Of a DNA stretch of 64,000 nucleotides, positions 1 to 55,639 are shown piece by piece. The stretch is from Siphonodentalium dalli (taxonomy: Eukaryota; Mollusca; Scaphopoda; Gadilida; Siphonodentaliidae), in the NCBI GenBank assembly GCA_032622095.1, contig CP136061.1, positions 18,416,991 through 18,480,990 of the forward strand, written 5' to 3'. Positions within the stretch are counted from its first letter, which is position 1. Every line of letters starts with the position of its first letter. The notes under the pieces were generated by a model. It was given only the letters and a program-made list of their open reading frames with translations, ran no database searches and had not been told where the DNA came from. The translations under genes were made by a program, and so were the position numbers.

Positions 1-2403
1 ATACATGTAACCTATGAGTATGCTATCCATGGGTTAATAAATAGAGCTGTATCACATACATGTAACCTATGAGTATGCTATCCATGGGTTAATAAATAGA
101 GATGTATCACATACATGTAACCTATGAGTATGCTATCCATGGGTTAATAAATAGAGCTGTATCACATACATGTAACCTATGAGTATGCTATCCATGGGTT
201 AATAAATAGAGCTGTATCACATACATGTAACCTATGTGTAGGACGCTATCCATGGGTTAATAAATAGAGATGTATCACATACATGTAACCTATGTAGGAC
301 GCTATCCATGGGTTAATAAATAGAGATGTATCACATACATGTAACCTATGAGTATGCTATCCATGGGTTAATAAATAGAGCTGTATCACATACATGTAAC
401 CTATGTAGGACGCTATCCATGGGTTAATAAATAGAGCTGTATCACATACATGTAACCTATGTAGGACGCTATCCATGGGTTAATAAATAGAGCTGTATCA
501 CATACATGTAACCTATGTAGGACGCTATCCATGGGTTAATAAATAGAGCTGTATCACATACATGTAACCTATGTAGGACGCTATCCATGGGTTAATAAAT
601 AGAGATGTATCACATACATGTAACCTATGTAGGACGCTATCCATGGGTTAATAAATAGAGATGTATCACATACATGCAACCTATGTAGGACGCTATCCAT
701 GGGTTAATAAATAGAGCTGTATCACATACATGTATAGGACGCTATCCATGGGTTAATAAATAGAGATGTATCACATACATGTAACCTATGCTATCCATGG
801 GTTAATAAATAGAGATGTATCACATACATGTAACCTATGTGTAGGACGCTATCCATGGGTTAATAAATAGAGATGTATCACATACATGTAACCTATGAGT
901 ATGCTATCCATGGGTTAATAAATAGAGCTGTATCACATACATGTAACCTATGAGTATGCTATCCATGGGTTAATAAATAGAGCTGTATCACATACATGTA
1001 ACCTATGTAGGACGCTATCCATGGGTTAATAAATAGAGATGTATCACATACATGTATAGGACGCTATCCATGGGTTAATAAATAGAGCTGTATCACATAC
1101 ATGTAACCTATGTAGTACGCTATCCATGGGTTAATAAATAGAGATGTATCACATACATGTATAGGACGCTATCCATGGGTTAATAAATAGAGATGTATCA
1201 CATACATGTAACCTATGTAACCTATGAGTATGCTATCCATGGGTTAATAAATAGAGATGTATCACATACATGTAACCTATGTAGGACGCTATCCATGGGT
1301 TAATAAATAGAGATGTATCACATACATGTATAGGACGCTATCCATGGGTTAATAAATAGAGATGTATCACATACATGTAACCTATGTAACCTATGAGTAT
1401 GCTATCCATGGGTTAATAAATAGAGATGTATCACATACATGTAACCTATGTAGGACGCTATCCATGGGTTAATAAATAGAGATGTATCACATACATGTAA
1501 CCTATGTAGGACGCTATCCATGGGTTAATAAATAGAGCTGTATCACATACATGTAACCTATGAGTATGCTATCCATGGGTTAATAAATAGAGATGTATCA
1601 CATACATGTAACCTATGTAGGACGCTATCCATGGGTTAATAAATAGAGCTGTATCACATACATGTAACCTATGTAACCTATGAGTATGCTATCCATGGGT
1701 TAATAAATAGAGATGTATCACATACATGTAACCTATGTAACCTATGAGTATGCTATCCATGGGTTAATAAATAGAGATGTATCACATACATGTAACCTAT
1801 GAGTATGCTATCCATGGGTTAATAAATAGAGATGTATCACATACATGTAACCTATGTAGGACGCTATCCATGGGTTAATAAATAGAGCTGTATCACATAC
1901 ATGTAACCTATGAGTATGCTATCCATGGGTTAATAAATAGAGATGTATCACATACATGTAACCTATGTAGGACGCTATCCATGGGTTAATAAATAGAGAT
2001 GTATCACATACATGTAACCTATGTAGGACGCTATCCATGGGTTAATAAATAGAGCTGTATCACATACATGTAACCTATGAGTATGCTATCCATGGGTTAA
2101 TAAATAGAGATGTATCACATACATGTAACCTATGTAGGACGCTATCCATGGGTTAATAAATAGAGATGTATCACATACATGTAACCTATGTAGGACGCTA
2201 TCCATGGGTTAATAAATAGAGATGTATCACATACATGTATAGGACGCTATCCATGGGTTAATAAATAGAGATGTATCACATACATGCAACCTATGTAGGA
2301 CGCTATCCATGGGTTAATAAATAGCGCTGTATCACATACATGTATAGGACGCTATCCATGGGTTAATAAATAGAGATGTATCACATACATGTAACCTATG
2401 AGT
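1..2403. repeat. 55/56-bp satellite that includes the exon 17 splice donor
   Basis: About 43 head-to-tail units of 55-56 bp. On the gene strand each full unit carries CATAG|GTTACATGTATG, the same donor sequence that ends exon 17, followed by AT-rich filler. Two main unit types alternate (GAGTATGC versus TAGGACGC), and some units lack the eight bases around the donor. The array touches the exon: the first unit shares about ten bases of exon end. It continues beyond position 1. Confidence 0.95.
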
Positions 2404-5400
2404 ATCTGTCAAGTTATCACACATATCCATGAAGTAGAGAGGGAAGACAACTCTATGCCAGAATATGAAACTACAGTCACACGCGGACCTCAACCTGTAA
2501 ACAAACAAATGAGAAATGGGTGTAAAAGTTAGAAAAGATTCTCAGGAATATGACATGAAATCATTAAATGTCAGAGGTCATTTAATAACATAGATATTGA
2601 TAGAAATTTATATGCTAACTTTGGAACATAATGAGGTATGACACTAACTCTAAGATTAATATATACTTTATTGGGTGAAATAAATCAACTAAGTTTTGTG
2701 GACATTTGTTTGGGTAATAATGGGCACAGGTAACTCATATTAAAACCTGAGCTAGCCGGTGGAATGCTCGCATGTTTTCAATATGTTTTTGGCTTGAGAA
2801 ATTGAAACTTTAGTTTGCACTGTCTAAGTAACAATCATTCTGCATCAAATAAATGAACATGCTTCAAAATATTGATTGTTATGATATGCTCTTGAGTTAT
2901 TTTCCCGATTAAACATAAATGAAATGAACGAATATATGGGACAAACCTTTCTCTGATGTCAACAATTGCTTCAAGTTTCTTGTAAGTGGCAACAAATCCT
3001 AGTAATTCATCATCTCTAAATGCTTTCTGTTGGAGAGAAATTAAAGTTGTTTCATGTTGTTAATAAAATTTCCATCAAATAATAACAATCAGAACAAAGT
3101 GCACTTGTAGGTAGCATAATAGGGTAAATGAAAAATACAGGACTATTAACCCTTTGTGCTGGTGCATCATTAAAGATCCTGCGCCATTGCATCCTCTTAT
3201 ATATATGCGAGTCTCACATGGGAAGCCTGGCATATATAAGAGAATGCACTGGCTTACAAGATCATTGCAAATATAGGCCAATTGTGTTATATATGCAAGG
3301 CACCCTATGGGCGACTCGCGTATATAAGAGAATGCATTGGCACAGGGTTTTCGCAAAATTTCAGGAAGCTCCAGTCATCAAGGGATTAAGAGATAGACAG
3401 AACACAATTTGCATTTTCATCAAGAATATTTTATCGAATGAGTTGCGGATGATGCAAGGATATATTACACGAAAGCCGAGCTTGAGTGACATGTGACTAT
3501 GTGTGGTCTGCAATGAGTTCGATATATTAAAGAATTTGATGCAAGTTGTGTTCCAATATAAGTTCAATCCATGAGTGTGACTACCATTGATACTATATCT
3601 ACCTTTGTTGTGGTTTAAGTCTGATGAGAAACAGGTAATTATCATCTGTGCATCACCCAAAGCGGATAGTTGACATTATGTAGGCCACATACGCCATCAC
3701 TCTTGGCAAAAACATCAACCCAAAGTTGTTCCAGCTTGTATTCCACTTATAGTATACAATACAGTCTAACAAAACTCAGACCGTGTTTCATTTCAATCAA
3801 CTTACGGTCTGAAGAATCTCATGGTTAAAATTAATTCAAACGAGAGAAATCTAGCCAATTCGCAGCAAGCGATGCGTTGGTTGACCAATGAATAGCTTCT
3901 AGCAAATTCAATTAAAATTCACTATTTCATACAAGCCACACCCGCGACATTTGACTGCAATCTCATGAAGTTATCATATAAACGACACGTTAGTGTCGCG
4001 TATCTTAACTGACCAAACGTCGTATGTTCAAAATCACAACTAACGTACGTTTATTCATAATTGGGAAATGTTCAGACAGAACAATTATACATAACAGAAT
4101 TGTATTTGCAAAGACATTCAAAAAAATACTATTTTCTCCTAACCTAGGGAATTTCCCCTTCATCTCTGAAATCAGATTCCGTGCGAGTGTCGTCAGACGT
4201 AGTTGAAAGTAATGAGACGGAGTCTGGATATATATCAGACTGTATACAATACTATGTATTCAATGGCTGGGATTGCACTCAATACATATGCCTCACATCA
4301 ATGGGTATGGAATAAAATGAGTAAACTCAAAATGCTCATCAGATACTATGCTGGATTCAAGCAATGACAATCAAAGATTTCTATCAGAAGACATGAAAAA
4401 ACATTGTAAGAGTCAATAACACTGTAGCTCAACATGGAGAGGGGATAATGCCATACATCACAGTCAATGAATTGATAAGGAATGCGTGGAAAAGTTGTAA
4501 TGTTCAAGTAATACCAGAGGTCAACACAAAGATCAATCTCAAGTTTGGGATCAATTAGATGAAAAATGTTCGCTGTAGGGCATGCCAAAGTATTTAGTCA
4601 TACGCAGAGTAAAATCCAAGATGGCTGCCAGCGGCCATGTTTTTTTATTGAAAATCATTGAAATTTGATAGCTCCCATCTTGAAGTGATCCTAAACATGC
4701 ATGTATATTTTCAAAACATTTCTCCAAAAAATGTGGGCTGCAGGGTGTGCTGATGGATTCAAATGTGAAATCCAAGATGGCCACTGACAGCTATGTTTTA
4801 AAAGGATCTTCAGAACAGTTTTGTAGCTCCCATCTAGAGGTCACCCCAAAAATCCATATGAAGTTTGATGACAATCAGATGAGGAATGTGGCCTGTAGTA
4901 TGTGCCAAACATAATTGTTGACGGATGTATATTTTCGACTATACATCTTGCTAATATGAATTATTATTCTTACCATCTGTGTGCTGACAGATAAAGCAAG
5001 TCTCATGATAAGTCTTCTATCTTTGGTTCCTGCAAGATCCATGTTCAGATGTTAATGTAGAGGCTAAGGTTTTCAGTATAGCAATTTAGGTTATATTTAC
5101 ACTCGAATGCAGAACGATGGTTGGTTGAAATCGCATTGTGTGAAATCGCGCACAGGTCCCAACTTGTTTCAATATTGTTTTGAAACAACTTATACAACAA
5201 GAATATTGTTGAAAATGGCGCTAAATGCTATTTTAATCTGATAGCTGAGCAGAGCTGAGTGTAAATATAAGGAATTGATGTTGATTTTGTGGCGTTCCAT
5301 AGAGAAAGGATGCAAGTTCCACACAAAAAGTCAGACCGACTTCGAATCATACTCCATGGGATGTCAGAATCAACATCCATTTGTTGACAAGCTGAAATTA

Positions 5401-8400
5401 AGCTTTTCAAATAGCATACACCACATGAATGAGTTGATTGATTGATTGATTCGGGTTTAATGTCACTTTCAGCAACTAAGGCCATATCAAGACATTGCCA
5501 GTTTTAGTGGGGGAGGAAATCCGCACACTTACTGATAATCTAACAGTTATTTCAATGACTGATAGACTCGTCAACCATGTGCGGCAAACCACCAGCCATT
5601 GGCGAGTAACTGGAAACTCTACCAGATAACGATTTCGAGTTACAACATCCCCAATGGAAACATGTGGATTTGAACCCTCATCACCAGCGCTTGGAGTTTT
5701 ACCGACTTCGAATCATACTCCATGGGATGTCAGAATCAACATCCATTTCTTGACAAGCTGAAATTTTGACTGAGCCATCGAGGCCCCCATATGAATGAGT
5801 GATCTCCAAAACAGGTAAATACTGTATATAACAATAGAAAAAATTTAAAGGTAACACAGGTCTTTAATTTACAATGAACTTTTGTATAGAGTATTAGATT
5901 TCTTTTAATAACTTTCATTTTTATCCAATTTATATTTAAAAAACAATTAAAAAAATTAAATACCGTGAGCCAAGATATATTGCCTATCCAAATTCTCCAT
6001 ACCGACGATAAAAACATGATATGACAAAATATTGTAAAAGCATGAACCCCTACTAACCTGGCCCATGTAATGCATTCTCAGCCAGCACCAATGCTGAGAG
6101 TACATCTAGTCGTCTCTCACTGTACTTCTTATCAGATGTGATTCGCTTCTGTGAATAAAATACAGAATGATGATGTAAAAGAATGTATTTGAGTGAATAA
6201 TATTATATGACACTGTAACTATTGTCAGAATGTTTATTATATCGATTCAATGGGTAAAGGAAGTACAGAAATCAAGATATCAAAATCAACTTACTTGATT
6301 AATAAAAATAGCTTAGTTTAAGGTATCTATCCATTTCCCATAACTTTGTCATTGTTTGTCATTGTGTAAACTTGATAAATCTAACAAGAGACATCCCCAA
6401 AATTAGAAAATTAGCTAAATCTGAATTCGATGGCTTGCACGCAACACTCGACACAAAAACCATGTCAAAAGCTCCAAAGATTCGTTGCTAGGCACTGGAA
6501 ACATGCACCACACGCCACTTGAAATGGTCTTATCAGAGAATCATATTGATGTTGGATGATAGTCATCATGATACATACCTTGGCCGTTTCTATACAGTTT
6601 ATAAGAATAAAGCTAAGATGCTGTGCAATGTGGTTGATGGATTCGGCAATCAGCATACTCCGTCTGTGGAATGTATGTTCAATTGCCTGTGTAAAAATAA
6701 AAATCTATTCAGTTCACTCTAATATATATGAATGCTATTATTAAGGTACCTCACAGTTATAAACCAAGATGCTTGACAAGGAAACTTCATAAGATAGAAC
6801 GGAAACACATTTTAACTTTCACAACTAAACCCCAATTTGAAATGAAAATACAATCCTGTAAAATCATTGGTTGTAATGTCTTTGATAATCACTCTCACAC
6901 ATAAACGGCCACCTTGCACATACATACATAATGAACATTTATGCAATAAAATGAATTCTTCCTAAAGTTGTTTCACTTCAGCCTATTTTAAATTTGCTGG
7001 TGAGAGAAGTGACATCCATTTGCATGACACACCAGGTCTGCTGGCGCTCACAGATTAGACAGATGTCATTTCTCTCAAGAAAACTGGACACGCAAAGTCC
7101 CAATGGCATGAACACTAAAATCAATTCCCGTCATCGCGTATATTGGTATAAGTTAATCCAAAGAAAAAAGTTGATGTCAATAATTACTATGTTTCATGAT
7201 GTCCTCTTGAAAATGTAGTGTAATACATGTCCATAAAGTTGAAAGAGAGTGTTTCAATTATTACATCATAAGCTGTAAATTCATGTAATATTATAAAATT
7301 TTGTTGTCACTTAATTAGCCATTAATGTTATACAGTCAATTCCAATTAATCGAATAACGGTTAATCAAATAATTCTATGAACACTTTAGGCCTTTGTATG
7401 CTTTTATTACTGTTTATATTGTCACTGTTATTTAATATTTATCCGTTATATGTTTTAAAATAAATCATGTTCTATAAAATGTCTTCCTCAATCACTCGAT
7501 GTGCTTCTATCGATCAAAGGTGAATAACTCTAACCAGTCCTTCAATGTAAACATTAAACATGTGCTTCTATCGATCAAAGGTGAATAACTCTAACCAGTC
7601 CTTCAATGTAAACATTAAACACGTGCTTTTATAGATCGATGTTTTTACAATTTTCCCTCGGTAAAAAGTAACAACAAACACACAATCTGACAATGGTATT
7701 ACAAATATTTTAATATTATATGAAACAATCAATAAAGAGAACAATATTATGAAGTAAATACACATTTAATAACAGGTATTTTAAAGTTTTTATATCAAAC
7801 AAACATCGGTCAAGTCAGTGGTACATCGTCAACTCGAAATTACGTTTTGGTGCATCGTCAACTCGAAATTGCAACGTTTTGGTGCAAATTCGTCTAAACA
7901 AATAATCGGTTATTCAAATAAAAAATTGCTGCACCGAGCATATTCTATTAACCAAAATCGACTGTACCTCGATAAACTAATCAGTGTCGGTGACTCTTCC
8001 AAAAACCATAGGTGTGTGAACTAGTTTCCGAGACAGAATTAGGTTTCTCAGCAATTGGATGCGTGCTTGACATGTGTTAGTTTCCTGGACATAATTGTTG
8101 CTCGCAAAGAACTTATATAATTTTATGGAAATATATTTGGAAAACTACACGTTCTTGACAAATATTGCGATTATATAATAAATAACTTCTCCTTAGATTA
8201 AGATATAGCTGAAAAGTTTAAAGACAAACATTATAGAATTTGTCTTCAAATTTTGGTTATAATTGCAATTAAAGAAGGGTTATTTCTTCATTAATTCAGT
8301 AGTAAGGCTGATACACTGCAATGTATAACAACAGATACATTAGAATCCAACTAAAAATTTATTGTTAATGTCTGCATGAGGCCATTCATTAAAGTTATTA

Positions 8401-11400
8401 TTCTTCCGACGGCTTACAACATGTACCTTGAGCAGCTCGAGAAGGCGACATAGTGACAGGACAGCAGTTCTAGTCATAGGTTTCTGTAAGGCCACGTGTA
8501 GATTCATCATCGTCCGAATCAGATGACTCAGATTATATGAGTATAGCAAGCCCTGAAATACAAGAAATCATGTAGAATAAACATCATACGAACCAGATGA
8601 CTCCGATTATATGAGCATAGTAAGCCCTGAAATACAAGAAATCATGTAGAATAAACATCGTCTGAACCAGATGACTCAGATTATATGAGCATAGTAAGCC
8701 CTGAAATATATGAAATCATGTAGAATCATCATCGTCCGTGTAAACCAAGTTAATGAATATTAATGATTTATAAAGACCAGGGTAATGAATAGTGATGAGT
8801 AGTGACCCGAAGAAACAGGGTACATTTGTTGTTATGGTCCTCCATCAGATGACATAGTAAAGAATATTAAAGAGTATATATCAGAGTAATGAATATTAAT
8901 GAGTATAGATGATACTAATGAATATTAACAAATACTGAACTGAATTAAAAGGGTACACGTTGTTGAGGTCTTCCATCAGATGATATGATAATGAATATTA
9001 ATGAGAGTATGTGACAATAATAACTATTAATGAATATAGATGATACTAATGAATATTGATTTGGTATCAACCTGAAGAAACATGGTACACCTGTGTTGAG
9101 ATCCTCCATCAGGTTACACTGTAAGGAATATTAATGAGTACAGATGATAGTAATAAATATTAATGAGTATAGACGATACTAATGAATATCGATAAATACT
9201 GACCTGAAGAAACAGGGTACATCTGTTGTCAAGATCCTCCATTAGATATCATGGTAAGGAATATTAATGAGTATATATGATACTAATGAATATTAATGAG
9301 TACTGACCTGAATGAACAGGGTACATCTGCTGTCGAGGGCCTCCATTAAATGACATGGTAATGAATATTAATGAGTATAGATGATACTAATGAATATTGA
9401 TGAGTACTGACCTGAAGGAACAGGGTACATCTGCTGTCGAGGGCTTCCATTAAATGACATGGTAATGAATATTAATGAGTATAGATGATACTAATGAATA
9501 TTTATGAGTACTGACCTGAAGGAACAGGGTACATCTGGTGTCGAGGGCTTCCATTAGATATCATGGTAATGAATATTAATGAGTATAGATGATACTAATG
9601 AATATTGATGAGTACTGACCTGAAGGAACAGGGTACATCTGCTGTCGAGGGCCTCCATTAGATATCATGGTAATGAATATTAATGAGTATAGATGATACT
9701 AATGAATATTGATGAGTACTGACCTGAAGGAACAGGGTACATCTGGTGTCGAGGGCCTCCATTAGATTACTCCCCCGTGACAGATTAGACTCCATCTTCA
9801 CCATCCACGCTGAGATGTTAGTGTTGTAAACCTGCAGGTCCCTGAAGAAGGTTGTCAATAATGATCTTCATGCATCAAATTAGACATAACAGTAGGGCCC
9901 TGCGAATATTCGAATTCGATTCGAAATTTCGAATCATTCCTGCGATTCGATTCGATTTTATTTCGAATCTTGTTGACGTTGTTTTCAAATTGAATATCTC
10001 GTGGCATTCTCGCCGACGGTTGAGTCAAATGATGTCGTTTACGGTCAGAGTTTATACCAGTTTCCTGTCGCACACACACGATTCGTCGGCTCGCCCGTTG
10101 ACCGAATAACACTATTGTGCCGTCACATGGGGTCTATAATGCTAGAAACAAGGTGATGACTCTGAGCACCTTTAGATAACGATGGTATTGTTGAATCAAT
10201 TTATTTTCTGCCACACAGATCAGCATACTAGTCTCTGAGCTATTAAATATGCTTCCGACAATCAAGATTTGAATTGATGTCGCCATTTGATTATAATCTT
10301 ATGCTCACAGCATGACTGTTCCTTGAACCTTTTAGTCGGACACAAAATTTGTGATATCAATTATAACATAGATATTATATAGCTACAACAACCACCACCA
10401 GCGGTGCAAATGACACGTTCCGATGTGTCATTCCCGATTTTGAGTGAACCCAACTTATTTCCGTATTACATCGTCCATATTCAGCTGTTTCCGTGGATAA
10501 AATGAATCAGTTCCGGTTGACAATCCCACAACCCACACAAGGGATTAATGCCGGTGTGTACGATGAATTCTCTCATTAGTATTTACTTTTGTTTATGAAC
10601 TCCTCACATGTCAACACAATGTCTGATTCGATTTGAATTCAATTCGAAATCGAATACCATTTACCTGATTCGATTCGGTATTTGATTCGATAGAAACAAT
10701 CCGATTCGCAGGGGCCTACATAACAGTTATAATTTTTCGATTTGGATCAAGTCCTGATGGTCAGGATGGATTGATAAATACACGAAATACAAATATACTG
10801 ACTCTATTTACTCTTAAAAGACTTACTAGCACCAAAGCTGTGGAACCTGTTCAGCTGTTTTCAACTTTGGGCAAAAAATTATACAAATGCTTTTATTTTT
10901 ACCATATCAGGAATGTAATTTAATGCTTGAGGCCTAAAAAAAATATTCTATGATTTGAAAGAGTTTTTCCGAGACACTAAGGTTGCGTAAATAAGTACTG
11001 GGGGTACTTTATGCAAATTTAACAAAAATTAATAATGCAAGATAAAAACATTTACATCTTAAGTGCTAACCTTTGAGGTATCAAGGAAATTCTAAGATAC
11101 TGAAGAAAATGCAAGAGAAAAACTTTATAGGTGCTCGAAACAAATATTTATAACATACATGTATATGTTACATTTTATAGAACATGTTTCCCACTTAAAA
11201 AAGCATCAAATGTTATTTACTTATTTGTATTGAAATCGCCTTGACATAGTTGTTATATATAGAAAGCATGACATGATTCAGCTGGGATAAAGCAGGGTTG
11301 TCAACTTGATGTCAACCTTGTTTCCTTTTCTGTTAGCATGTACCCCTGTAGTGCAAGCCCGAGTTTAATGTGCCTGTCATTTGCAGAATGAGTTCCCCAG

Positions 11401-14400
11401 AGGGTGAATTTAGTGATGCTATCCCGCATAGTGGGCTAGCATCACAAAATTCACCCTCTGGGGACCTCATTCTGCTTAGGCCTCATCTGCTATGGGAGGC
11501 ATAGACTCAGAATGAAGTTCCCAAATGGTGTACACCCATTGGGAACCTTGATTATGCAATGTCTCGTCTGCCAATTTGGGAATATAGACAAACTAAACTA
11601 AAACAAAAATAGAATCTAGTGAAAAAGTTTCTATAGAAATTTGATAATAAAGAAACTTTCCAGAGAAGATGAGGACTAAACAGAATGAGGTCCCAGAGGA
11701 TGAATTTAGTGATGTTAGCCCACTTTGTGGGACAATGTCACTAAATTCACCTTCTGGGGACCTCATTCTGTAGATGACAGGCACACTAAACTCAGACTTG
11801 CTGTAGTGTATCATTCTTCGAGGGTGCCAACTTGAGACTAACTATTGAATAGGTACAGTAATGCCCTAAGTAATCGAACTTTTAACCACAGCAGAATTAT
11901 GGGTAACTTTTTAGGATTTAGTCGGAAATATGGCTTGTTGCCATTCATCGGAAAGCTCTCGGGGAGAGCTTTCCGATGAATGGCAACAAGCCATATTTTC
12001 GACTAAATCCTGAAAAGTTACCCATAATTCTGCTGTGGTTAAGAGGTCGATTACTTTGGGCATTACTGTAGATTACACCATCTTACCACCATCAGACCCC
12101 AAAACTCAGCATATATTGGTTTGGATCACATAATAACTTGCCATAAATGCACTACAAGATAACACATAAATCTTGTAGATGGCACTGAGCAACACCACTT
12201 TACTGGGTGCAGTCTACTAGTTATTCTGTACCCACACTGTGCCAAGTATTTCATCAGGTGTTCATGTTGAATACTCTATATCATAAAGATGATACGAATG
12301 AATGTGAGCAATGTATTACCATGAGGGCCCTTCCATATTAACAATGTATTACCATGAAGGGCCTTCCATATTAACAATGTATTACCATGAGGGCCCTTCC
12401 ATATTAACAATGTATTACCATGAGGGCCCTTCCATATTAACAATGTATTACCATGAGGGCCCTTCCATATTAACAATGTATTACCATGAGGGCCCTTCCA
12501 TATTAACAATGTATTACCATGAGGGCCCTTCCATATTAACAATGTATTACCATGAGGGCCCTTCCATATTAACAATGTATTACCATGAGGGCCCTTCCAT
12601 ATTAACAATGTATTACCATGAGGGCCCTTCCATATTAACAATGTATTATCATGAGGGCCCTTCCATATTAACAATGTATTACCATGAGGGCCCTTCCATA
12701 TTAACAATGTATTACCATGAGGGCCCTTCCATATTAACAATGTATTACCATGAGGGCCCTTCCATATTAACAATGTATTACCATGAGGCCCCTTCCATAT
12801 TAACAATGTATTACCATGAGGGCCCTTCCATATTAACAAGCTCTGCTTCAATAGGGTCCTGTTGTGTGTTTATGTAAACTTGTCATTGATTATCTAATAA
12901 ACTTGTCATTGATTATCTAATAAACTTGTCATTGATTATCTAATAAACTTTATTGAACTTGAACTTGAACTTGAACACGTGATTATTTGACATTCCGGAG
13001 TACCCTACACTGGTTCTGTCTATGAGATAACTTGTTGTCAGCGCCGTGGAATATTTTTTATTACATATCTATCAACGTAATTCGCATGATCGCACGACGT
13101 TCCAGGCGTGTGATAATTCTCAGAATCGCACTAGTGCAATCTGTTGACGGAACTATTTCATTCAGTGTTGTTAGACTGGCTCTCGCTGTTACTATTCTTA
13201 CTTTTTCAACTTTTCAACACAAGGGCGACATCGCAGCGTGCTGATTGGGTTATATTTTTGGAAAATCTGGGAAAACCCAATTATAGACGGATAGACGGGC
13301 TCCCTGACAGGATATGAGCAATCTAATGGTGCTGTTTAAATATGTCAAACGTGGCGCCATTCGCGTCAGGGATGCACGGAAGGGGAGAGGGCCACCAATA
13401 TTTATAAAACTAATTTTAGCGGCGATTTCCACCAAATTGATGTATATTCTTTTTCATAATAAAAGGAATCTAATTGTGCGATTTAAAGACTCCAAATTGC
13501 TGTCTGATTGTTGCGTTAACCCTAAAATGCTGTTAAAACTCAATTAAATTCACATTTTCTGTACGGGAGATGTACGATTGTGAGTCAACTTACTATGATA
13601 CGGAGATAAGTAATAAAAATAGAACCGCATGAGTGTCTGGATTTTGATGAATTATCGCACTCGATTTGTTGGCGGAACGCGATACCTCTCGTGCGGGACT
13701 GCTCCGCCAACAAATCTCGTGTGATAATTTCGTCAAAATCCAGAACTTGATTTGCGGTTCTATCTATATCCCACATGCCAGGATTGGATTAGTTATCTTC
13801 TACCAACATTTTTACACAAACAATTTTACTTGTATGATCGTATTACTTCAGAATTGATGTCCATAACTCATAAATATGCAGAATGTCAGGAACCTTGAAA
13901 ACTGAACATGTAAACCAGAGTGAATGGCCCATCACCAGTGAAAATTACATTAATTATTTTTTGCAACCTGTGAGTGTTCCATAATTTGGCCTAAAAAAGA
14001 CTGTTGTCTCCACTAACACAATCGACCCTATTTCAAATAATAATAATGATAATAAACAGGTTTCTTATATAATGCCAAATCCCAGTTGGTTCAAGGCACT
14101 ATAAAACCGCCTAGTCTATAAAACCTAGCACTATAAAACCGCCTAGTCTATAAAACCTAGCACTATAAAACCGCCTAGTCTATAAAACCTAGCACTATAA
14201 AACCGCCTAGTCTATAAAACCTAGCACTATAAAACTGCCTAGTCTATAAAACCTAGCACTATAAAACAGCCTAGTCTATAAAACCTAGCACTATAAAACC
14301 GCCTAGTCTATAAAACCTAGCACTATAAAACCGCCTAGTCTATAAAACCAAGCACTATAAAACCGCCTAGTCTATAAAACCTAGCACTATAAAACCGCCT

Positions 14401-26400: not shown

Positions 26401-29400
26401 GTAACATGTTATGACATTGATGGCCGGAATCAATAAAGTCATGAGGGGACGTAATTAATTGTAATTAATTGTTGAAAATATGGAGCGCATGCTTGGTGTA
26501 GTAAAACATTTGCAAGAATAATAGTATTTAGTAGTTATAAAATCAACACGATGTGAACAAATAATCAGTAATAAATTTCATTCTGAAAAACTTGAAGATA
26601 ATGTCTCCCAGATTGCAATCAATAAATTATGGATATATCATCAGTTCAGTTAAACTTCGTTAAGTCAAAACGCAAGGGACCGTTTGATTACTTCGAGTTA
26701 CCCATGTGTTCGACTTAACCATTTCGACCATTTGATGACCCAACTAGTCGAATTAATTGCGACCCGAAAATAATTCATTTCGTCTGTCAACACTATACTA
26801 ATCCTCACAAGGTGGAAATTGACCCACGCACCTTCTTAATATGCTAAATAAATAATGCATTAGGACAAACAAAGACTCTAAGAAACTTTACAGCTTTTTA
26901 TGCAATTGAATGGAAGCACAGAGTTAAAATCACATGGCGTGCATCGCCGACGGCACTTCGACTTAACCATAGTAATTAGTGTTATAAGCTGGCTGGTGGG
27001 ACCAAATTTCATTTCGCCTTAAGCAGGAATTTCGACTTATCCACCTTCGACTTAACCATGATTATTATATTGGCTTTGCACACAAGCTCAGCCGGGACCA
27101 GGCAATGGCTTCGACTTAAGTGGGGTATTCGAGTTACCGACGTTCGACTTAACGATGTTTGACTGTATTCTATATTATAAAATTTATAATGTTGCACTAT
27201 TCATGGGAAAATTGTCAAAACGACATTGGCTTCAGATCTCACAATTTAAATATAAACAATATTGAAGAATGTTTGTAATTGTCGTCTGCTTTTTAACCTG
27301 TTCGCTATTAACTATTAAAAGTGCACGTAATGTGCTATATGGTCCATAGTACCTACAGACCTACTTCAGCACACTAGCAGTAGGCCATTATTTATAACTG
27401 GAACTCGGAGATTGGTGCATCGGAATAACTGTATCTAGAACTTTCAAACAGTGTAAAAAGTCGTTACTTTACCATCTCCACTGAGAATATTTATTTTGTC
27501 TTTTAGCTCCTAAATTCAACGCAAACGGTGCCAAATCAAGGGATGAAGAAGTGCGCACATTCAAGATAGGAACGGATCAAAATTCAAGGCAAGAAGTGAT
27601 AGCCAAATTAACACTTTACCCTTATGCCCTGTGCCAATGCATTCTCTTATATATGCGAGTCGACCATAGGTCGCCTCGCATATATAAGAGAATGCAATGG
27701 CCTAAAAAAAATCTTTTTTTTAACACTTTTTACCATTTTTTCTTACATTCTTTAACAATTTTATCATTTTTTCTTACATTTTTTAACAATTTTTATAATA
27801 TTTTTCTACATTCTTTGACAATTTTATCATTTTTAATATGTGTTAAGCCAATGCATTCTTTTATATATGCGAGGCGACCTATGGTCGACTCACATATATA
27901 AGAGAATGCATTGGCACAGGGCCGTTCTGTTGGGTAAAGGGTTAAAGACAGGAAATATTACCCAAATTCAAGCTTGGAAGGCAGGGCCAAATTCATGGCA
28001 GAAAAGACACTAAAATGCAAAGCAAGAATGGAAGAGATGCATCAGGGAGAGCTTACTTGGTCAGCTGTTGGTTTTTCTGTTGTAGCCACGCCTGTTGTTG
28101 CTGTTGAACAGCAACCTTGGCCTTCCTATCAAGTGCTTTGTCCATATGTGGGAGTTTACTGAGCAAAAAGTCATTCGGAAACCACATCACATTGGCTATT
28201 AGGTGGACTGCTGGCACCTGCAATAGAAAGAGAAAACTACATCACATTGGCTATTATGTAGACTGCTGGGACCTGTGGTAGAAGGCATTAGGTCATAATG
28301 CAGTGACAAAGAATCCACATCACATTGGTTATTAGTTTTATGGGTAACCTATAAGTGGTAAGTGGGTGTCTGACCAGGTAACACATCATGTAGGGTTAGC
28401 GAAAATCACACCAAGCATCCCGGGATGAGAGTAAAAAGTCTAAATGAAATGCTGGCTGACGGCCCGAAGGCTTTTTGATATGTCAAATTAGGATACGCTG
28501 AAAGAAAAATGGCCTGAAACCAATTAGTCATATACATTTAATCACAAAGTGAAGTTGGTACCAAATGTATGGATGACAAAAGAAAGAAGAGGGAATCTGC
28601 AAAGCATATGAAAATATGGGGGGGGGGAATAATGCAGTGACAAAGAAGCCACATCACATTGGTTATTAGGTGTATTACTGGCACTTACAACAGAAAGCAT
28701 TTTGGTTCATTGGACATTTGATGATTTGAGCATTAACACTTCCATGACTGAAGCTTCCTGAAGGTTTACGAAAACCCTGTGCCAATGCATTCTCTTATAT
28801 ATGGTAGTCTCCCATAGGGAGTCATGCATATATGGGAGAATACATAGGCCAAAAAATATTTGCCTTGACCATGTCAGCCAGTGCATTCACTTATATATGA
28901 GAGGCTTGCTATGGGAGACTAGCATATATAAGAGAATGTACTGGCACAGAATCTTAAATGCTACACCTTCACAGATCCTGTGAAAGGGTTAAAACATTTG
29001 TGAATCAAAATGTATGAACAAAGTTATGAAGAGCTAGTGGGCAATCAAGCATGGCTTAGTTCAATGTAGAGTTTACATGGTACATGAGGAATGCCAAGTG
29101 CCAATTGCACTATTAACCCTTTCAGCATTAAAGATCCTGTGCCAGTGCATTCTCTTATATATGTGAGTCTCCCATAGGTAGCCTCACATATATTTTATAA
29201 GACAATGCACTGGCTGTCAAGGTAAATATTGTTAGGCCAATGTATTCTCTTATATATGTGAGGCTCCCAATGGGAGACTCGCATATATAAGAGAATACAT
29301 TGGTACACGGTTTTCGCAAAATTTCAGGAAGCTCGATCCAGTCATGGAAGGGTTAAAGGAGCATAGTTGTTATATATAGTTTATCACACTCACCAATGTG

Positions 29401-32400
29401 AGATGACTTACCTTTTTATACATGTCCCACAATGTCTTGAATGTCTTCTTGTCCGTCACATGGAAGATCTGATAGTGAAGAACATACAATCCACACAACC
29501 CAACAAACTTATATCTCTGGTCCATCTCGTTTGATTCACCTGATGGATAAAAAATACGATTTATATCTCCGGTCCATCTCGTTTGATTCACCTGATGGAT
29601 AAAAAATACGATTTATATCTCCGGTTCATCTCGTTTGATTCACCTGATGGATAAAAAATACGATTTATATCTCCGGTCCATCTCGTTTGATTCACCTGAT
29701 GGATAAAAAATACGATTTATATCTCCGGTCCATCTCGTTTGATTCACCTGATGGATAAAAAATACGATTTATATCTCCGGTCCATCTCGTTTGATTCACC
29801 TGATGGATAAAAAATACGATTTATATCTCCGGTCCATCTCGTTTGATTCACCTGATGGATAAAAAATACGATTTATATCTCCGGTCCATCTCGTTTGATT
29901 CACCTGATGGATAAAAAATACGATTTATATCTCCGGTCCATCTCGTTTGATTCACCTGATGGATAAAAAATACGATTTATATCTCCGGTCCATCTCGTTT
30001 GATTCACCTGATGGATAAAAAATACGATTTATATCTCCGGTCCATCTCGTTTGATTCACCTGATGGATAAAAAATACGATTTATATCTCCGGTCCATCTC
30101 GTTTGATTCACCTGATGGATAAAAAATACGATTTATATCACCGGTCCATCTCGTTTGATTCACCTGATGGATAAAAAATACGATTTATATCTCCGGTCCA
30201 TCTCGTTTGATTCACCTGATGGATAAAAAATACGATTTATATCTCCGGTCCATCTCGTTTGATTCACCTGATGGATAAAAAATACGATTTATATCACCGG
30301 TCCATCTCGTTTGATTCACCTGATGGATAAAAAATACGATTTATATCTCCGGTCCATCTCGTTTGATTCACCTGATGGATAAAAAATACGATTTATATCT
30401 CTAGTCCATCTCGTTTGATTCACCTGATGGATAAAAAATACGATTTATATCTCCGGTCCATCTCGTTTGATTCACCTGATGGATAGAAAATACGATTTAT
30501 ATCTCCGGTCCATCTCGTTTGATTCACCTGATGGATAAAAAATACGATTTATATCTCTGGTCCATCTCGTTTGATTCACCTGATGGATAAAAAATACGAT
30601 TTATATCTCCGGTCCATCTCGTTTGATTCACCTGATGGATAAAAATACGATTTATATCTCCGGTCCATCTCGTTTGATTCACCTGATGGAAAAAAAAATA
30701 CGATTTATATCTCCGGTCCATCTCGTTTGATTCACCTGATGGATAAAAAATACGATTTATATCTCCGGTCCATCTCGTTTGATTCACCTGATGGATAAAA
30801 AATACGATTTATATCTCCGGTCCATCTCGTTTGATTCACCTGATGGATAAAAAATACGATTTATATCTCCGGTCCATCTCGTTTGATTCACCTGATGGAT
30901 AAAAAATACGATTTATATCTCCGGTCCATCTCGTTTGATTCACCTGATGGAAAAAAATACGATTTATATCTCCGGTCCATCTCGTTTGATTCACCTGATG
31001 GATAAAAAATACGATTTATATCTCCGGTCCATCTCGTTTGATTCACCTGATGGATAAAAAATACGATTTAAATCTCTAGTCCATCTCGTTTGATTCACCT
31101 GATGGATAAAAAAAATGATTTATATCACTGGTCCATCTCGTTTGATTTACCTGATGGATAAAATATAAGAATTAAATCTCTGGTCCATCTCGTTTGATTC
31201 ACCTGATGGATAAAAAATATGTTAACAAACTTATATCTCTGGTCCATCTCATTCGATTCACCTGATGGATGAAAAATATGTTCATCCACTTTGGATATCA
31301 GAAAACATAGTCGTAAGAGCGACGTATTTTATTCCAAAGTGTTAAATCAGGTGTGTGAATTTAAAAAAAAAAAAAATCTACAAAGGCAAACATGTTTTGT
31401 AGCAAGATCTTTCATCGTCATAGACCACTATGCCATAACGCAGGGCATTTCAGAAAAGTAAGCTATACAATGATGTTGGGAAGTAGTTAGACAAAACTAA
31501 AACATAATTATGAAGTACAGGAATTTTGGCAGTAATGCTATTTCATTTGCGAATTAATTGGAATAATTCCCTGAGAAAGAATCATAGGAACTATATTTTT
31601 GCCGGCAGATTTGAGTGAAGCAGTTGTGTTAAACTTTCTTTCCAATTAATTGACCGGTGAAGCCAGTTGCTAATTTTTAAAACCCTCCCTCCACTTTTTT
31701 AGTTGTTGGAAATACAGGATTAATGTCTTTGCCTTTTGCCTACATGTATATGCGGTTATTGTGCCTCAAAAAATTATCACTCACATATTTGTATTTGTTA
31801 CTACTACATTTATTGTATCAGCTTCCTGTAAACAATTAAGCTTTTCTAAACAGGTAGCTAAAAACACATTTCAGTGTTTGTCTTTCACTCTAACCCTGTG
31901 GGATAAAAGCTATATAAAATTGCCTACCCATTAAAATTGCCTAACCATTAAGATTGTTTTCCCATTAAGATTGCCTTGCCATTGACCTTACCTAACCATT
32001 AAACTTATCTACCCATTAAGATTGCCTACCCATTAACATTACCTACCCATTAACATTGCCTACCCATTAACATTGCCTACCCATTAACATTGCCTACCCA
32101 TTTACATTGCCCACCAATAAAGATTGCATACCCATTAACATTGCCTACACATTGACCTTAACTAACCATTAAACTTATCTACCCATTAAGATTGCCTACC
32201 CATTAAGATTGCCTACCCATTTACATTGCCCACCCATTAACATTGCCCACCCATTAACATTGCCTACCCATGAAGATTGCCTACTCATTAACGTTACCTA
32301 CCTATTAAGATTGCCTACCCATTTACATTGCCCACCCATTAACATTGCCTACCCATGAAGATTACCTACTCATTAACGTTACCTACCTATTAAGATTGCC

Positions 32401-35400
32401 TACCCATTTACATTGCCTGCTCATTAAGATTGCCTACCCAGAAAGATTGCATACTCATTAACGTTACCTACCTATTAAGATTGCCTACCCATTTACATTG
32501 CCTGCTCATTAAGATTGCCTACCCAGAAAGATTGCATACTCATTAACGTTACCTACCTATTAAGATTGCCTACCCATTTACATTGCCCACCCATTAACAT
32601 TGCCTACCCATGAAGATTACCTACTCATTAACGTTACCTACCTATTAAGATTGCCTACCCATTTACATTGCCCACCCATTAAGATTGCCTACCCAGAAAG
32701 ATTGCATACTCATTAACGTTACCAACACATTAAGATTGCCTACCCATTAACATTGCCTGCTCATTAACATTGCCTGCTCATTAAGATTGCCTACCCAGAA
32801 AGATTGCATACTCATTAACGTTACCTACACATTAACATTGCCTACCCATTAACATTGCCTGCTCATTAACATTGCCTACCCATGAAGATTGCCTACCCAT
32901 TAACATTGCCTGCTCATTAACATTGCCTACACATTAACATTGCCTGCTCATTAACATTGCCTGCTCATTAACATTGCCTGCTCATTAACATTGCCTGCTC
33001 ATTAACATTGCCTACACATTAACATTGCCTGCTCATTAACATTGCCTACCCATGAAGATTGCCTACCCATTAACATTGCCTACACATTAACATTGCCTGC
33101 TCATTAACATTGCCTACCCATGAAGATTGCCTACCCATGAAGATTGCCTACCCATTAACATTGCCTGCTCATTAAGATTGCCTACCCAGAAAGATTGCAT
33201 ACTCATTAACGTTACCAACACATTAAGATTGCCTACCCATTAACATTGCCTGCTCATTAACATTGCCTACCCATGAAGATTACCTACTCATTAATGTTAC
33301 CTACACAATAAGATTGGCTCCCCATTAAGATTGGCTATCCATTAACATTGCCTACCTGTTAACATTGCCTACCCATTAACATTACCTACCTATTAAGATT
33401 GCCTACCCATTAACATAACCTACCCATTAACATTGCCTACCCATTAACATTACCTACCCATTAACATTACCTACCCATTTACATTGTCCACCCATTTACA
33501 TTGTCCACCCATTAACATTGCCTACCCATTAACATTGCCTACCCATTCTCGTCTCCAGGTCTGTAGCATACTCTCTGATGTTGATTGCAAACTCTTCAGC
33601 AAAAACAGCATTCTTTGACACATGAACCCTTGCATCATCATATGGCTTCTCAACGCAATTCTGAAACAATTAAATAAATTGAGAAATTGCAGACAATGCA
33701 AATTATACTCATTATAAAAGAACAAACACAAATCAAATATGAGAAATTAAGTTTGTTAGTCTCTCTCTGTTTTTTTTTCAAAACAAGGAAGACAAAGATA
33801 AATAAAGATATCTTAAATACTGTCTTCTCTGGCACCTCCCTCAAAAAGAGGGCCTCATCAAATAAATATAAATACTGTCTTCTCTGGCACCTCCCTCAAA
33901 AAGAGGGCCTCATCAAATAAATATAAATACTGTGTTCTCTGGCTCCTCCCTCAAAAAGAGGGCCTCATCAAATAAATATAAATACTGTCTTCTCAGGCTC
34001 CTCCCTCAAAAAGAGGGCCTCATCAAATAAATATAAATACTGTGTTCTCAGGCACCTCCCTCAAAAAGAGGGCCTCATCAAATAAATATAAATACTGTGT
34101 TCTCAGGCACCTCCCTCAAAAAGAGGGCCTCATCAAATAAATATAAATACTGTGTTCTCAGGCACCTCCCTCAAAAAGAGGGCCTCATCAAATAAATATA
34201 AATACTGTGTTCTCAGGCACCTCCCTCAAAAAGAGGGCCTCATCCAGGGTCCGCGCTGGACCGAAATAAACTTTTGCCAAATGAAAATATTGTTTGCCAA
34301 ATTCTGTTATAATTTGCCAAATGCTACCATTTTCTGCAACATTAAGTCTTATGTTTCGACACTCCCGGTTTTGAACGACTTTTGATAGCGATAGGAAAGC
34401 AGTTAGTTAATTAGTATTTTTCATACAACAATAAACCAACCAAAGAACAATAAAATGATAGTAGGGTTGCTTCCAGTCTGGAGTAAACTGCATACCCACA
34501 TATAAAAAATAGTGGGTCTGACGACCTTTCGTTCAGTTTTCATTTCCCAAATCCGGGATTCCTTGTAATTACCGCCAATCAAAACTTAGCTCCAAGAAAT
34601 GTGTGCCCCAATAAAAAACTAGTAACATGTCACGTGCTCTTGGTGTGGAAATTCCGAAGGTGTGGCTAAAGGTTGTTAAAAATAGTATACATGACGTCAT
34701 GTTATACCGGAAGAGAAATTCACAAATCGACAAATAAAGTAGATTGTTGACGAGCGGTCGAAAGTTTAAAATCAAGAATCACCGGAATGTGGATTGCAGG
34801 CAACTGTAATTTGGGTACAAGTGGTACAATCTTTGGAGCTAATAATACGGCTGTGTAATGTCAGATGGGGTTCGGTGGCGTTGGTGGTAGAATTGTGTTG
34901 CTCTTCGCTCGTTTTGCCTGCGGTGGTGCTACGGTACTGGGTAACTGATAGATCGTTTTTTTTATGTCAAGGTACTTTTTTTTTAGTTCTGTAGTTGTTT
35001 TATCAGATAGTCCCGACATTCATGTATTTTTTATTCGTGGCCGTTGATTTGTGTTATTTTTTGACAACATGGGCGACAAATCGCCTGGCCAATCTAAAAA
35101 TAATTCGTTCTGAGAACTTCTGAGTCCAAGAAATCCACATAAATTGACATTTTTTATAATTTCAAGTAGATCTGTCTTAGTTATTGTACATTTTATTTTG
35201 GATCCCGGAAGCTGTTTCCCTTTATTGTCAGTAAAATAACCGCCCAACGAAAAGTCACAAACCCTGCAACTATTAATTCCGATTCTTAGAATCAGCTTCA
35301 CAGGGTTGAAGCGGCCATGACGGCACTGGCACGTGACCATGTTTACACCTGTCAATCACAACTAATTTCAGATTTATATTTAGCGCGGTGTGACGTAATT

Positions 35401-38400
35401 TGGGGGAAGCCCACAACCGTTCAGAAATGAAAAGTTGATGGGAATGCAATAGACTCAGTATCATTATGAATCTGAGTGTATGTTTACATAGACTGGGTTG
35501 CTTCATCAGGATTAGCTACGTAAACATCACCACACTAAATATTTGTAATCCCTCCACCCATCAATACTATATATAATAGCTGTCAGATTAACTGCATCTT
35601 AATAGAGTTGTTAACTTTTCCTAAACCATATAAAACACCACTGATATAATTATATTGTAAGAGTTTCCTGAAATGAATGATATTGGTTGACCACTATTTG
35701 TGAGCTGTCTTGAGGAATTAAAAATGACTTGCCAAAACTTTTGCCAAATGAAAATAGTTTTTGCCAAATGTGAACAATTTTTGCCATTGGCAAATTTGGC
35801 AAGTGGCAGCGCGAACCCTGGCCTCATCAAATAAATATAAATACTGTCTTCTCTGGCTCCTCCCTCATCGCCAAAAGGAGGGCCTCATCAAAACATTTTA
35901 TTTGCAATTTTACCCAGAATTTTCAAAGAGTTCAAATATAATTCTCCAATTTACCCATAATTAGAAATTTAGATAGGTTTCTGTTGAATACATAATGGGT
36001 AAACGGCATTGGATGACAGATTCTATACATTTGTTTATCACAAAATAACCCATACATCCATTAGTTTCTAGAATTATCATACAATTTCCCATACATAATT
36101 GCCTGAGAACTCACCTGAAATATAAAACCATCTAGAAGTTGACCCTCGATTGACATCATCAGCTTCTCAAAGGGACGTAACTTGTCTCCAGAGATGTTGA
36201 ATCTGCTTGTATCATGATGTACAGATTTCAGCATTCTAAAATACAGTAAATGAAAATAATTACAAAAACACCCCTTTATACCGGAGAAAAAAGCTGCAAA
36301 AAATGGTATATTTACCTATATAGAGGGTTTCCTCAGGGAATATAATTGGTTATAGTAGAATTGAGCATTCAAATAACCACTGTCAATACCATGATTCAGG
36401 ATGACTTCAGAAAACCTATAATTATGGTAACTGAAACATTTGCATGCAAAATCTAAGTTTAAAATCTAACAACGGTCGCAGTTGAATCACATGTATTTTG
36501 ACAGGGTATTATTTTCAGTTTTTGGCATCATAAAAACACTCACCTTTTGTATAGTGTCCAGTGGTCCTTGAGCATACCTTGATTCTCTACGATAGCATCC
36601 AGTGTTATCAACACACCCAACATGTCACCCAGATGCTCAAATACAACCTGGAATAGTCAATATTGTGTTTATTATATTTGTATAATCTCTGAAAAAGATA
36701 TTATTTATGCAAAATACAAAAACACGATACAGAGATATCACAAAACATTCCCATTGGTTACTGACAATTTACAGAGCACAGTATGATGTGATTCAAGTTT
36801 TTATTGCAAATCTATATTTATGTAGCATCTTAAAATCAGCCCCGAGTGGGCCCTGTTATAGAAAAAAAGGCCTTTTTTTTAGGCCCCGTGCCATTTACAA
36901 TCCGCAAAGACTGATAATTAACTCACTTGGAAATGTACATCCTCCATACTCATGAATCGCTGCCCTCTGTAAAAAAAAAAAATTCTTGTTATCAATATTG
37001 TTCAAATATAATGTTACTAGCTGAAACATGCTCCCCGCGACATCCAACAAAATAACGGGTACAAGTCTACTACAGGCTTATATTAGAACCAAATAAGTCC
37101 AATATGAACCAATGTCAATATTTGGGTCCAATATGAACCTATTTACCCAAGGATTTATTGAATTAGCAACATAATATGATCAATATACATACAAGAGTAG
37201 GATCTGTTTGTCATGTGCGCTAAGCGACCACAGGGGCTTTGCCCCTTAAAGCCCTTAACGGACAGAGGGGCCACAGGCCCTCTGACGCTGAATAAAGGCT
37301 CCCGAAGGCCACAGTGAAAACAAATCTATAAAGAACATACATATGTGCTTATTTGTATTTTGTGGGAGTTATTATTTTTTCACACTCAGATGTATCTATA
37401 TCTACAATTGAATGAATGAATAAATGAAAAACATCAACATTCAATCCACAACCTGTAAATTTATTACTGTAAATGTACCTCTTTATTAAAAGATTTTTAT
37501 AATTCAGTATGTTGTTTTGTCTTCCTGGAATTCCTAGAATAAACTCATTAAAGTTCTTGTCTGAGCAACACATCTCAATAGTGTGCTGAAAGCCAATCTG
37601 ATAACTGCTGATAAAATTCTTTGACCTTGGGGCAATCCCAAAATATGTGCTTAATTGTTTCTTCATTTTGATTACATCTCAGACATGTACCATCTTGTAC
37701 AGATCAAAACTCTTTTAAATTCACGTAGAGGAGTAAAACACATTTATAGGGTTCTATCAACATGACCTTGTACATTCTCTTATATATGCAAGGCTCCCTA
37801 TGGGAGACTAGAAATAGGGAGCCTAGGCTGCCTAGCATATATAAGAGAATGCACTGGCACAGGATCCCTCCAAATCAATAATAGACCATTCCGATGTACA
37901 CTTTTTAACTGACTGGGAGAATCCATTTAGTATAGAAAGGGTTAACATAAAAGGAATTGATATGAGACAAAGAATGAGAATATGTGTTACTTCGTTCCTG
38001 AGTGTAGAATTGCGAGTTGTTGTATTACACTCTTGACAACCTCAAAGCATCTGTTAACAAAGCATGATAGTTCCTGTAGTAACGGCATCATTCTCCCCAT
38101 CTGAATCTGAGCCTCTCCATCATCCAGTCCTTTATCTGACTCTAAAATTATCCAACATAATAAGGTATTATAATTAGGGCTGTAATGGCATCATTCTCCC
38201 CATCTGTATCTGAGCCTCTCCATCATCCAGTCCTTTATCTGACTATAAAATTATCCAACAGTATACGTATTATAATTAGGGCTGTAACGAGTCATCGTGA
38301 ATTCAATATATATTGTGATACCCTAACAAACAATACGCGATACGGGAAATCAAGTAATTATTTAACATGGGCATGAGTTAAAAGAGCAAAACCGGCCATT

Positions 38401-54262: not shown

Positions 54263-55155
54263 TCAGACACTGAAGACTAAGAAGTGGAGACCTTGGAATG
54301 CCCGTGACCCAGATAGAGAACTGTTGTCTAGTTTAAGCCGCACATTTATCCTCCTCGTAAAATTATGCCGATATTATAGACCCATTTGGTCTCCTACAGA
54401 TGGCACCACCACGTTCTATAGCGGACAGGCAGACAGACAAACATTCGAAAATATAGACAAAAGACGAAAGGAGTGTCGCCTAATGCGATGCGTGACTCAT
54501 TTTCCAGTTACTACTGAAGTAGTTCAATTGTGGTTATTAGGGCTGTATAAAGGGGACGGTAGAATGCAATAGTATAGTCCGTTTGCACAATAGCCTGGCG
54601 AACACTTTCAGTTAGTATTAGATGCACATTTGGTTGTTTCAGTTATCAGTTTCAGTTCACCAACATCATGCATCTCATAGTTAACATGCATAAGGGATAT
54701 GAGTATAAAACGATGACTATTGAGATCCTACTTGTCAGAACCCCGAATATATATGGAGCTCAAAATATTTATGGCAATGTCTTCTCTTAGAAAAAAAAAT
54801 GGAAATAAACATAAGTCATGCATTTGATGTCTCAAAAAATTTACTAATAAAGAGATGTCTACCAGAAAACATTTAGTCAGAACTAAATAACTAGCATGTT
54901 TCGGACTCGAACATGACCACAATTTAAAAATAAATACCCTACGTGACTGGGATGTAACAGTGTTTTATGACCCTCCCCTGGCTATAGTTCGTAAGTCAAA
55001 TCTGACATTTCAAGTTTTGTTGCAGCCCCCTCGCATTTTTTATTTCTATATATGTATCAAAATGACGGACGTCATCTACCGGGCGCGATACTAATCTACT
55101 GTTGTAAAAGTTGTCCAAAGGTAATAAGAGTCAATGGAGACTACGCTGAGCCCCG
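54263..55155. other. intergenic, no gene seen
   Basis: No coding family recognised. The plus-strand frame 54204-54572 begins inside the duplicated repeat and shows no domain. Confidence 0.45.
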
Positions 55156-55161
55156 ACATCA

Positions 55162-55625: not shown

Positions 55626-55639
55626 GTGATTTATGTCCA

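Follow-up and report, generated by a model that had tools for sequence, protein, structure and literature searches.

Why should the tandem repeats of a gene carry copies of that gene's own splice sites? This question is raised by a 64-kb stretch of DNA from the scaphopod mollusc Siphonodentalium dalli (C1:18416991-18480990, contig CP136061.1; hereafter the window), part of an assembly of 2.23 Gb in 9 contigs. The window holds the 5' half of WASHC4, a minus-strand gene in which arrays of short repeats begin within an exon, cross its edge and run on into the intron. These copies, here called echoes, are of the kind named mirages in amphioxus. We consider it likely that they arose by untargeted tandem duplication, were filtered by selection against damage to exons, and are tolerated via exon definition.

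Repeats across the exon edges of WASHC4

In order to fix the exon edges of WASHC4, reading frame, GT-AG intron ends and intron phase were used together. The joined exon pieces matched the WASH-4_N family (PF14745) with E = 1.2e-89, every intron from exon 1 to exon 17 starts with GT and finishes with AG, and exons 2-17 join into 601 stop-free codons with consistent phases. This model comprises 17 exons and 33 junctions in the window, the same numbers that an earlier note on this stretch had given. That note had let the gene extend to position 38288; with exon 1 at 49514..49574 (minus strand, as are all WASHC4 features below), it reaches further. Thirteen further exons were found in the adjoining DNA, so that exons 1-30 provide 1,078 open codons and the model, extending to the start of exon 31, covers 60 junctions; the gene continues past exon 31, and its last exons lie outside the model. 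Joining exon 18 placed the exon 17 donor at 2389 (AGGTTACAT|GTATGTG), still within its array, and a GT seven bases upstream, which had been used for the first junction search and the first statistics, was dropped. Repeating the search with the revised donor returned an identical set of seven junctions.

Echoes were searched for by comparing 80-mers centred on each junction with 4 kb on either side on the same strand. Junction-spanning copies were recovered at 7 of the 33 window junctions, namely the acceptors of exons 4, 9, 10 and 12 and the donors of exons 8, 11 and 17, which are exactly the junctions singled out before; for the other 26, this search gave no match at E < 0.01. Across the modelled gene, the acceptors of exons 21 and 26 and the donor of exon 29 bring the count to 10/60, with exons 21 and 29 having a single spanning copy each besides non-spanning matches. 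Alignment likewise bore out the earlier description of the arrays as splice site plus exon bases, with units that differ between junctions.

The most extended arrays lie at exons 8, 9 and 17. The donor of exon 8 (33543..33660) is repeated at 31915..33547 as a 17-bp unit in 96 copies, the acceptor of exon 9 (29412..29539) at 29509..31278 as a 52-bp unit in 34 copies, and the donor of exon 17 (2389..2494) at 1..2400 as a 55/56-bp unit with 43 copies within the window, arrays of this unit continuing past the left edge of the window (L010 9728-9951 and 4918-6629). The array at the donor of exon 11 (9724..9841) spans 8783..9767 and has a 104-bp unit, with a 133-bp unit in its older part, and that at the acceptor of exon 12 (8427..8552) occupies 8497..8738 with 3.3 copies of a 74-bp unit. 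At the acceptor of exon 4 (37991..38141), 2.1 copies of a 103-bp unit at 38079..38289 amount to one echo, in which AT stands in place of the homologous AG and another AG follows two bases further. Echoes of the exon 10 acceptor (exon 28057..28217; echoes 28178..28697) are few and diverged, comprising a copy at 28645-28697 (85%), a junction equivalent at 28272 and a fragment at 28311-28335; no row of the Tandem Repeats Finder (TRF) output lies over them, and their divergence obscures any unit length. Overall, copies diverge by degrees, at about 75-100% identity. Arrays account for 3367 of the 4003 bp of intron 8 (84%) and for 1127 of the 1171 bp of intron 11 (96%, made of the exon 11 and exon 12 arrays), and in each of these introns the arrays are those that extend inwards from its own ends.

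Two neighbouring layouts were also seen. A 19-bp tandem repeat at 39816-39863 lies 9 bp into the intron upstream of exon 3 and contains no exon bases. At the exon 29 donor (L008 3334-4473; C1:18390333-18391472), the copy of the exon end sits at the far end of an array of 32 copies of a 33-bp unit, as if amplification of an inner piece had subsequently divided an initial duplication.

To count potential decoy splice sites, each window array was aligned to its true site. This yielded 181 decoys (exon 4, 1; exon 8, 93; exon 9, 33; exon 10, 2; exon 11, 8; exon 12, 2; exon 17, 42), of which 158 have an intact GT or AG (0, 73, 33, 1, 7, 2 and 42, in the same order) and 110 have a core identical to that of the true site (0, 35, 27, 0, 5, 1 and 42). 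Use of 157 of the 158 intact decoys would be expected to result in a premature stop. At every echoed edge, the reading frame takes the exon-proximal copy, and no echo is read as exon. From frame, phase and homology, we infer that the exon-proximal copy is the site used. Since decoys with identical cores occur at exons 8, 9, 11, 12 and 17, the core signal cannot mark the right copy there, and position must. At exons 9, 10 and 26, the acceptor is joined directly to a donor-like GT (AG|GT).

The earlier note knew of no named system of this kind; such repeats have, however, already been described as mirages in lancelet genes. The name comes from amphioxus Adh3, and further cases were later found in globins, TnC and PGBD5 (PMC3087553, PMC3902484). 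In the passages of these reports that were available for comparison, the amphioxus mirages (Adh3, BflGb6, BflGb9, TnC, PGBD5) share with the mollusc echoes a tandem unit that crosses the boundary and includes exonic and intronic bases, an effect on both 5' and 3' boundaries (here four 3' and three 5' in the window), and the retention of AG/GT in many but not all copies (here 158/181). Unit lengths are 10-72 bp for Adh3, 150-160 bp for the globins and 60 and 108 bp for PGBD5 (PMC3087553, PMC3902484), compared to 17-104 bp here. With a boundary-spanning unit, both types of edge and most AG/GT kept, the mollusc echoes are mirages.

In contrast to the amphioxus cases, the host is a mollusc and not a cephalochordate, and the scale is larger: up to 96 copies, 10 of 60 junctions in one gene and introns that are 84-96% array, compared to a maximum of seven copies among the amphioxus examples described in those passages. 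For amphioxus, the same passages report or cite reverse transcription PCR, mRNA of normal form, differences between haplotypes and instability in somatic tissue (PMC3087553, PMC3902484), whereas the mollusc echoes are known from the sequence of one assembly. No report of splice-junction mirages in molluscs was found in the open-licence literature searched; as far as that literature shows, they are present here in a new phylum. Mirages thereby extend from lancelets to a mollusc, on a scale exceeding that of the cases compared and in more than one gene, and look like a property of minisatellite-rich genomes rather than of cephalochordates.

Other known systems resemble the echoes in part, as judged from the sections of the reports consulted. 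The tandem duplications described for gastropod hemocyanin introns concern protein units and not arrays of splice sites (PMC7931591). In the potato RNA-dependent RNA polymerase gene, an intron was gained by tandem duplication across an intron-exon boundary (PMC4974935), and there as here, a boundary-crossing duplication supplies ready-made splice signals; in potato, the duplicated stretch was seen to contain a new intron, whereas the WASHC4 frame takes a single copy at each edge and leaves the rest intronic. Earthworm metallothionein genes, from another spiralian, carry large minisatellite arrays in intron 1 (PMC12783039) and in this resemble WASHC4, the splice-site content of those arrays being unstated in the part consulted.

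Junction overlap and chance

To what extent do arrays meet exon edges more often than chance would bring about? Arrays make up 31% of the WASHC4 span in the window, so that junctions inside arrays are, per base, not unusual. When arrays were rotated against the junctions, 10.3 junctions were expected within arrays compared to 6 seen by TRF (P = 0.90). Rotation alone was rejected as a null, since it lets arrays fall across exons, from which selection would clear them. A second null placed arrays only where exons were spared; its outcome is taken up below. The surroundings are also rich in repeats: tandem arrays make up 15% of the 294 kb around WASHC4, with similar densities of 0.52 per kb outside the gene and 0.50 inside it.

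Because WASHC4 had been chosen for its pattern, an independent sample was needed. A profile search of the genome with the dynein heavy chain AAA_6 domain gave 96 exon matches, 60 of which were taken as control together with 280 bp on each side. These were picked regardless of repeats, being the first 61 listed minus one row with five stops; the 36 rows outside the sample include one that is itself an echo of the exon at locus L034. Edges in this control are ends of profile matches and not annotated exon ends. BLAST detected copies at 10/120 edges, and inspection left eight with copies spanning the edge within 280 bp (L050, L055, L057, L061, L063, L069, L081 and L083), while two (L067 and L086) were removed from the count since their repeats start a few bases inside the intron and merely abut the edge. 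L055/L057 and L063/L069 are duplicated loci with a common echo, leaving six independent events in 116 edges. That echoes are confined to WASHC4 was rejected, as dynein exon edges carry them too.

For comparison, 1,500 random points were drawn outside WASHC4 within the 294 kb, unscreened for coding sequence. An outward copy within 280 bp was present at 10.6% of the points, and 4.1% combined such a copy with the absence of any inward copy up to 450 bp away, the latter being the matched comparison for an edge with an exon on its other side; 5.9% had only an inward copy, for which the reach is longer. Compared to the matched 4.1%, the dynein rate of 6.7% (5.2% for independent events) does not amount to a significant excess (P = 0.12 and 0.34, respectively). 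Of the 27 junctions in the half of the gene unseen by the reader behind the earlier note, the matched measure found copies at 1, and between WASHC4 as modelled and the dynein sample there was no significant difference (Fisher P = 0.17; 0.08 for independent events). Counting by TRF gave a similar picture for dynein: an array unit spans a random point with a chance of 2.6%, and 5/120 edges were seen compared to 3.1 expected (P = 0.20). The earlier suggestion that junctions are hit beyond chance thus found no clear support in the control or in the unseen half, and a clear splice-site target was rejected on the present evidence from dynein and random points. A modest extra preference for exon edges beyond untargeted duplication may exist.

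Three loci met in these scans deserve mention in their own right. At L034/L091 (G000 C5:102298067-102299024), a dynein exon 3' end with its donor is repeated 0.66 kb downstream over 132 aligned columns at 92% identity; this copy lies beyond the 280-bp flank and is additional to the eight spanning edges. L063 and L069 (C6:62.05 Mb and C3:24.96 Mb), which are 97% alike over 270 bp, carry one common diverged echo that is probably older than the duplication of the two loci. In a search for strumpellin (WASHC5), the coding piece for profile positions 449-488 was found twice, about 0.5 kb apart (G000 C9:187703045-187703842), possibly representing another junction echo. The strumpellin scan (19 matches), a Myosin_head scan (85 matches, many on one contig) and a codon-usage scan of the flanks, which found 20 of 30 known exons, were left out of the counts.

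Origin and tolerance of the echoes

In the explanation we favour, a minisatellite would start as a local tandem duplication of a segment that happens to span a splice junction, and the array would then be amplified through slippage or unequal exchange. The genome appears to form tandem arrays freely and without strong preference for junctions; where short segments are duplicated this freely, junctions would be duplicated too. Selection would purge copies that break an exon, with the consequence that junction arrays would persist only when running into the intron. Exon definition, by pairing the two sites nearest to each other across the exon, would let the exon-proximal copy win despite decoys with identical cores. 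Growth of the intron from its ends would be a by-product.

Published splicing data, in the portion of the work consulted, bear on the last of these steps. Carranza, Shenasa and Hertel (2022) reported that with introns over 250 bases, the sites nearest across the exon are favoured, and that five minigenes offering a pair of identical 5' sites, with introns of 365 bases, were spliced exclusively at the exon-proximal one (PMC9225289). The WASHC4 frame demands the same exon-proximal choice as these minigenes, with human data behind the choice there and an inferred choice here. Human events under intron definition go the opposite way on 5' site choice (PMC9225289). Taken together, tolerance of the echoes would be best explained by exon definition, for which published support is strong at 5' sites and weaker at 3' sites. 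The tolerance through exon-proximal choice that the earlier note had proposed as one possibility agrees with the frame and with the 5' minigenes, and fits the 3' sites less well (PMC9225289). The locus represents a natural experiment that would be hard to build, with dozens of successive sites that share an identical core and a reading frame by which the exon-proximal one alone would be productive. Its 3' arrays are the sharper test of proximity because the published human data support the exon-proximal rule only weakly at 3' sites (PMC9225289).

Several results weigh against this explanation. With regard to origin, the exon-sparing null was exceeded: 0.66 of the 24 window arrays were expected at an exon edge compared to 6 observed (reached in 0/2000 runs), and for the modelled gene, 7/40 arrays compared to 1.4 to 1.6 expected (P = 0.001 and 0.0005). 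By the measure matched to the dynein control, WASHC4 has 8/60 junctions with copies compared to the 4.1% of random points (P = 0.003), and TRF counts 7/60 junctions compared to 1.5 expected (P = 0.001). In the window half, an excess persists (7/33 compared to 4.1%, P = 0.0003), and to this extent the excess noted earlier at WASHC4 stands, but this half was picked because of its pattern and the dynein control reached no significance. With regard to tolerance, support for the exon-proximal choice comes from frame, phase and homology. In human genes, near-equal 5' sites favour the exon-proximal one in only about 60% of events, and at 3' sites exon definition merely weakens an upstream preference (both as given in the portion of PMC9225289 consulted); the 3' arrays, which are four of the seven and hold exon 9's 33 intact decoys, are the least well explained. 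Intron length bears on both sides. The eight mirage introns are all at least 1.17 kb long and none is among the 9 introns under 600 bp, a pattern consistent with exon definition without proving it. Once array bases were subtracted, the medians of mirage and other introns were 960 and 1026 bp (P = 0.57), indicating that the arrays themselves account for the extra length of mirage introns; long introns as a precondition were rejected on this ground.

The points on origin would be expected if duplication were targeted to junctions, with exon edges seeding it through transcription-coupled breaks, R-loops, bound U1, the CAG|GT motif or a sharp step in GC content. Such targeting would also fit three more arrays that finish at most 50 bp from an exon edge (exons 3, 21 and 29), the two dynein edges with abutting arrays, and a GC content of 42% in exons compared to 36% in introns. 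We nevertheless regard it as unlikely, given that neither the 8/120 dynein edges nor the 6/116 independent events rise significantly above the random-point rate, that the unseen half of WASHC4 has only the one junction in 27, that rotation revealed no per-base excess, and that WASHC4 and the dynein control could not be told apart statistically. A further-reaching form, which we hold to be doubtful, would make preferential edge duplication a general driver of intron lengthening in this animal: introns would stack copies of their own splice sites from both ends, old copies would decay into ordinary intron, and exon definition would both allow echoing and be enforced by it.

Alternatively, the copies could be useful and selected, gathering U1 or U2AF near the exon edge or acting as recursive splice points. 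The well-conserved dinucleotides of the decoys (158/181) are in line with such a role, as is the exon 9 unit, TTTTTTATCCATCAG|GTGAAT, in which an acceptor is immediately followed by a donor-like GT as in a recursive site. However, young arrays would stay intact without selection, GT is lost in 20 of the 93 exon 8 decoys and AG in the exon 4 echo, and nearly all intact decoys would, if used, lead to the premature stops counted above. If splicing were recursive, the GT that opens exon 9 would be endangered as well. In addition, arrays away from junctions are the commoner class (17/24 in the window), and overall we judge a selected role very unlikely.

The arrays might also be an artefact of assembly. 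Long, near-identical arrays are prone to assembly error, and repeats near exons might have been collapsed or expanded. The graded divergence of the copies and the single echo common to the two duplicated dynein loci L063 and L069 argue against an artefact, as does, in the part of the report consulted, the confirmation of the lancelet PGBD5 repeats by resequencing, although copy number there differs between two assemblies (PMC3902484); we consider an artefact highly improbable. A dispersed satellite or introner-like element inserting at exon edges by chance, for which arrays and dispersed repeats away from exons in the window might speak, was rejected as scarcely credible, since the units hold WASHC4's own exon bases and differ between junctions, and since the exon 9 unit, the only one of the seven units searched, had 17 matches in the genome, every one of them in its own array; that search scores just the top candidates and passes over words that are very frequent.

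Other exons, relatives and features of the window

Among the remaining WASHC4 exons of the window, exon 1 was located by tblastn with WASHC4 proteins of other animals, is followed by GT and fits exon 2 in phase. Exon 2 (41140..41279) has both edges echo-free, and echo-free are likewise exons 3 (39641..39806), 5 (36927..36966), 6 (36544..36647), 7 (36115..36235), 13 (6579..6686), 14 (6058..6148), 15 (4974..5029) and 16 (2947..3026). Among the best 120 of 239 protein relatives, most are from molluscs (Haliotis 71%, Mytilus 69%), with the annelid Owenia (68%) within the first ten and Branchiostoma belcheri at 62%. In a tree of 37 WASHC4 proteins, a branch with support 100 placed the window protein with the molluscs, within neither the gastropods (100) nor the bivalves (98) sampled. 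A search with the WASHC4 peptide found no solved structure.

Intron 10 contains two repeats of a different make. A 5.4-kb array of a 32-bp unit at 14096-19523, the largest array of the window, lies away from exons and is no junction echo, and at 20534-22894 three to four diverged direct repeats, 60-87% alike, are spaced 470-665 bp apart, a period longer than TRF reports. At 41753-41913, seven identical copies of the 23-bp unit AGACAGGCCGAGTGGTTAGTGTT were found, a unit that resembles a tRNA D-arm; ARAGORN (bacterial code) found no tRNA. Pfam searches of two further open reading frames in the window returned no family for either. A dispersed repeat with short open frames, without gene evidence, occurs at 3078-3374, 27564-27742, 28710-28886, 29048-29323, 40373-40805, 53001-53336 and 55094-55630. 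Upstream of WASHC4 and on the same strand, the 3' end of a cytochrome P450 gene (63543-63998, minus; PF00067, E = 2.4e-48) was identified, the frame of which runs past the window.

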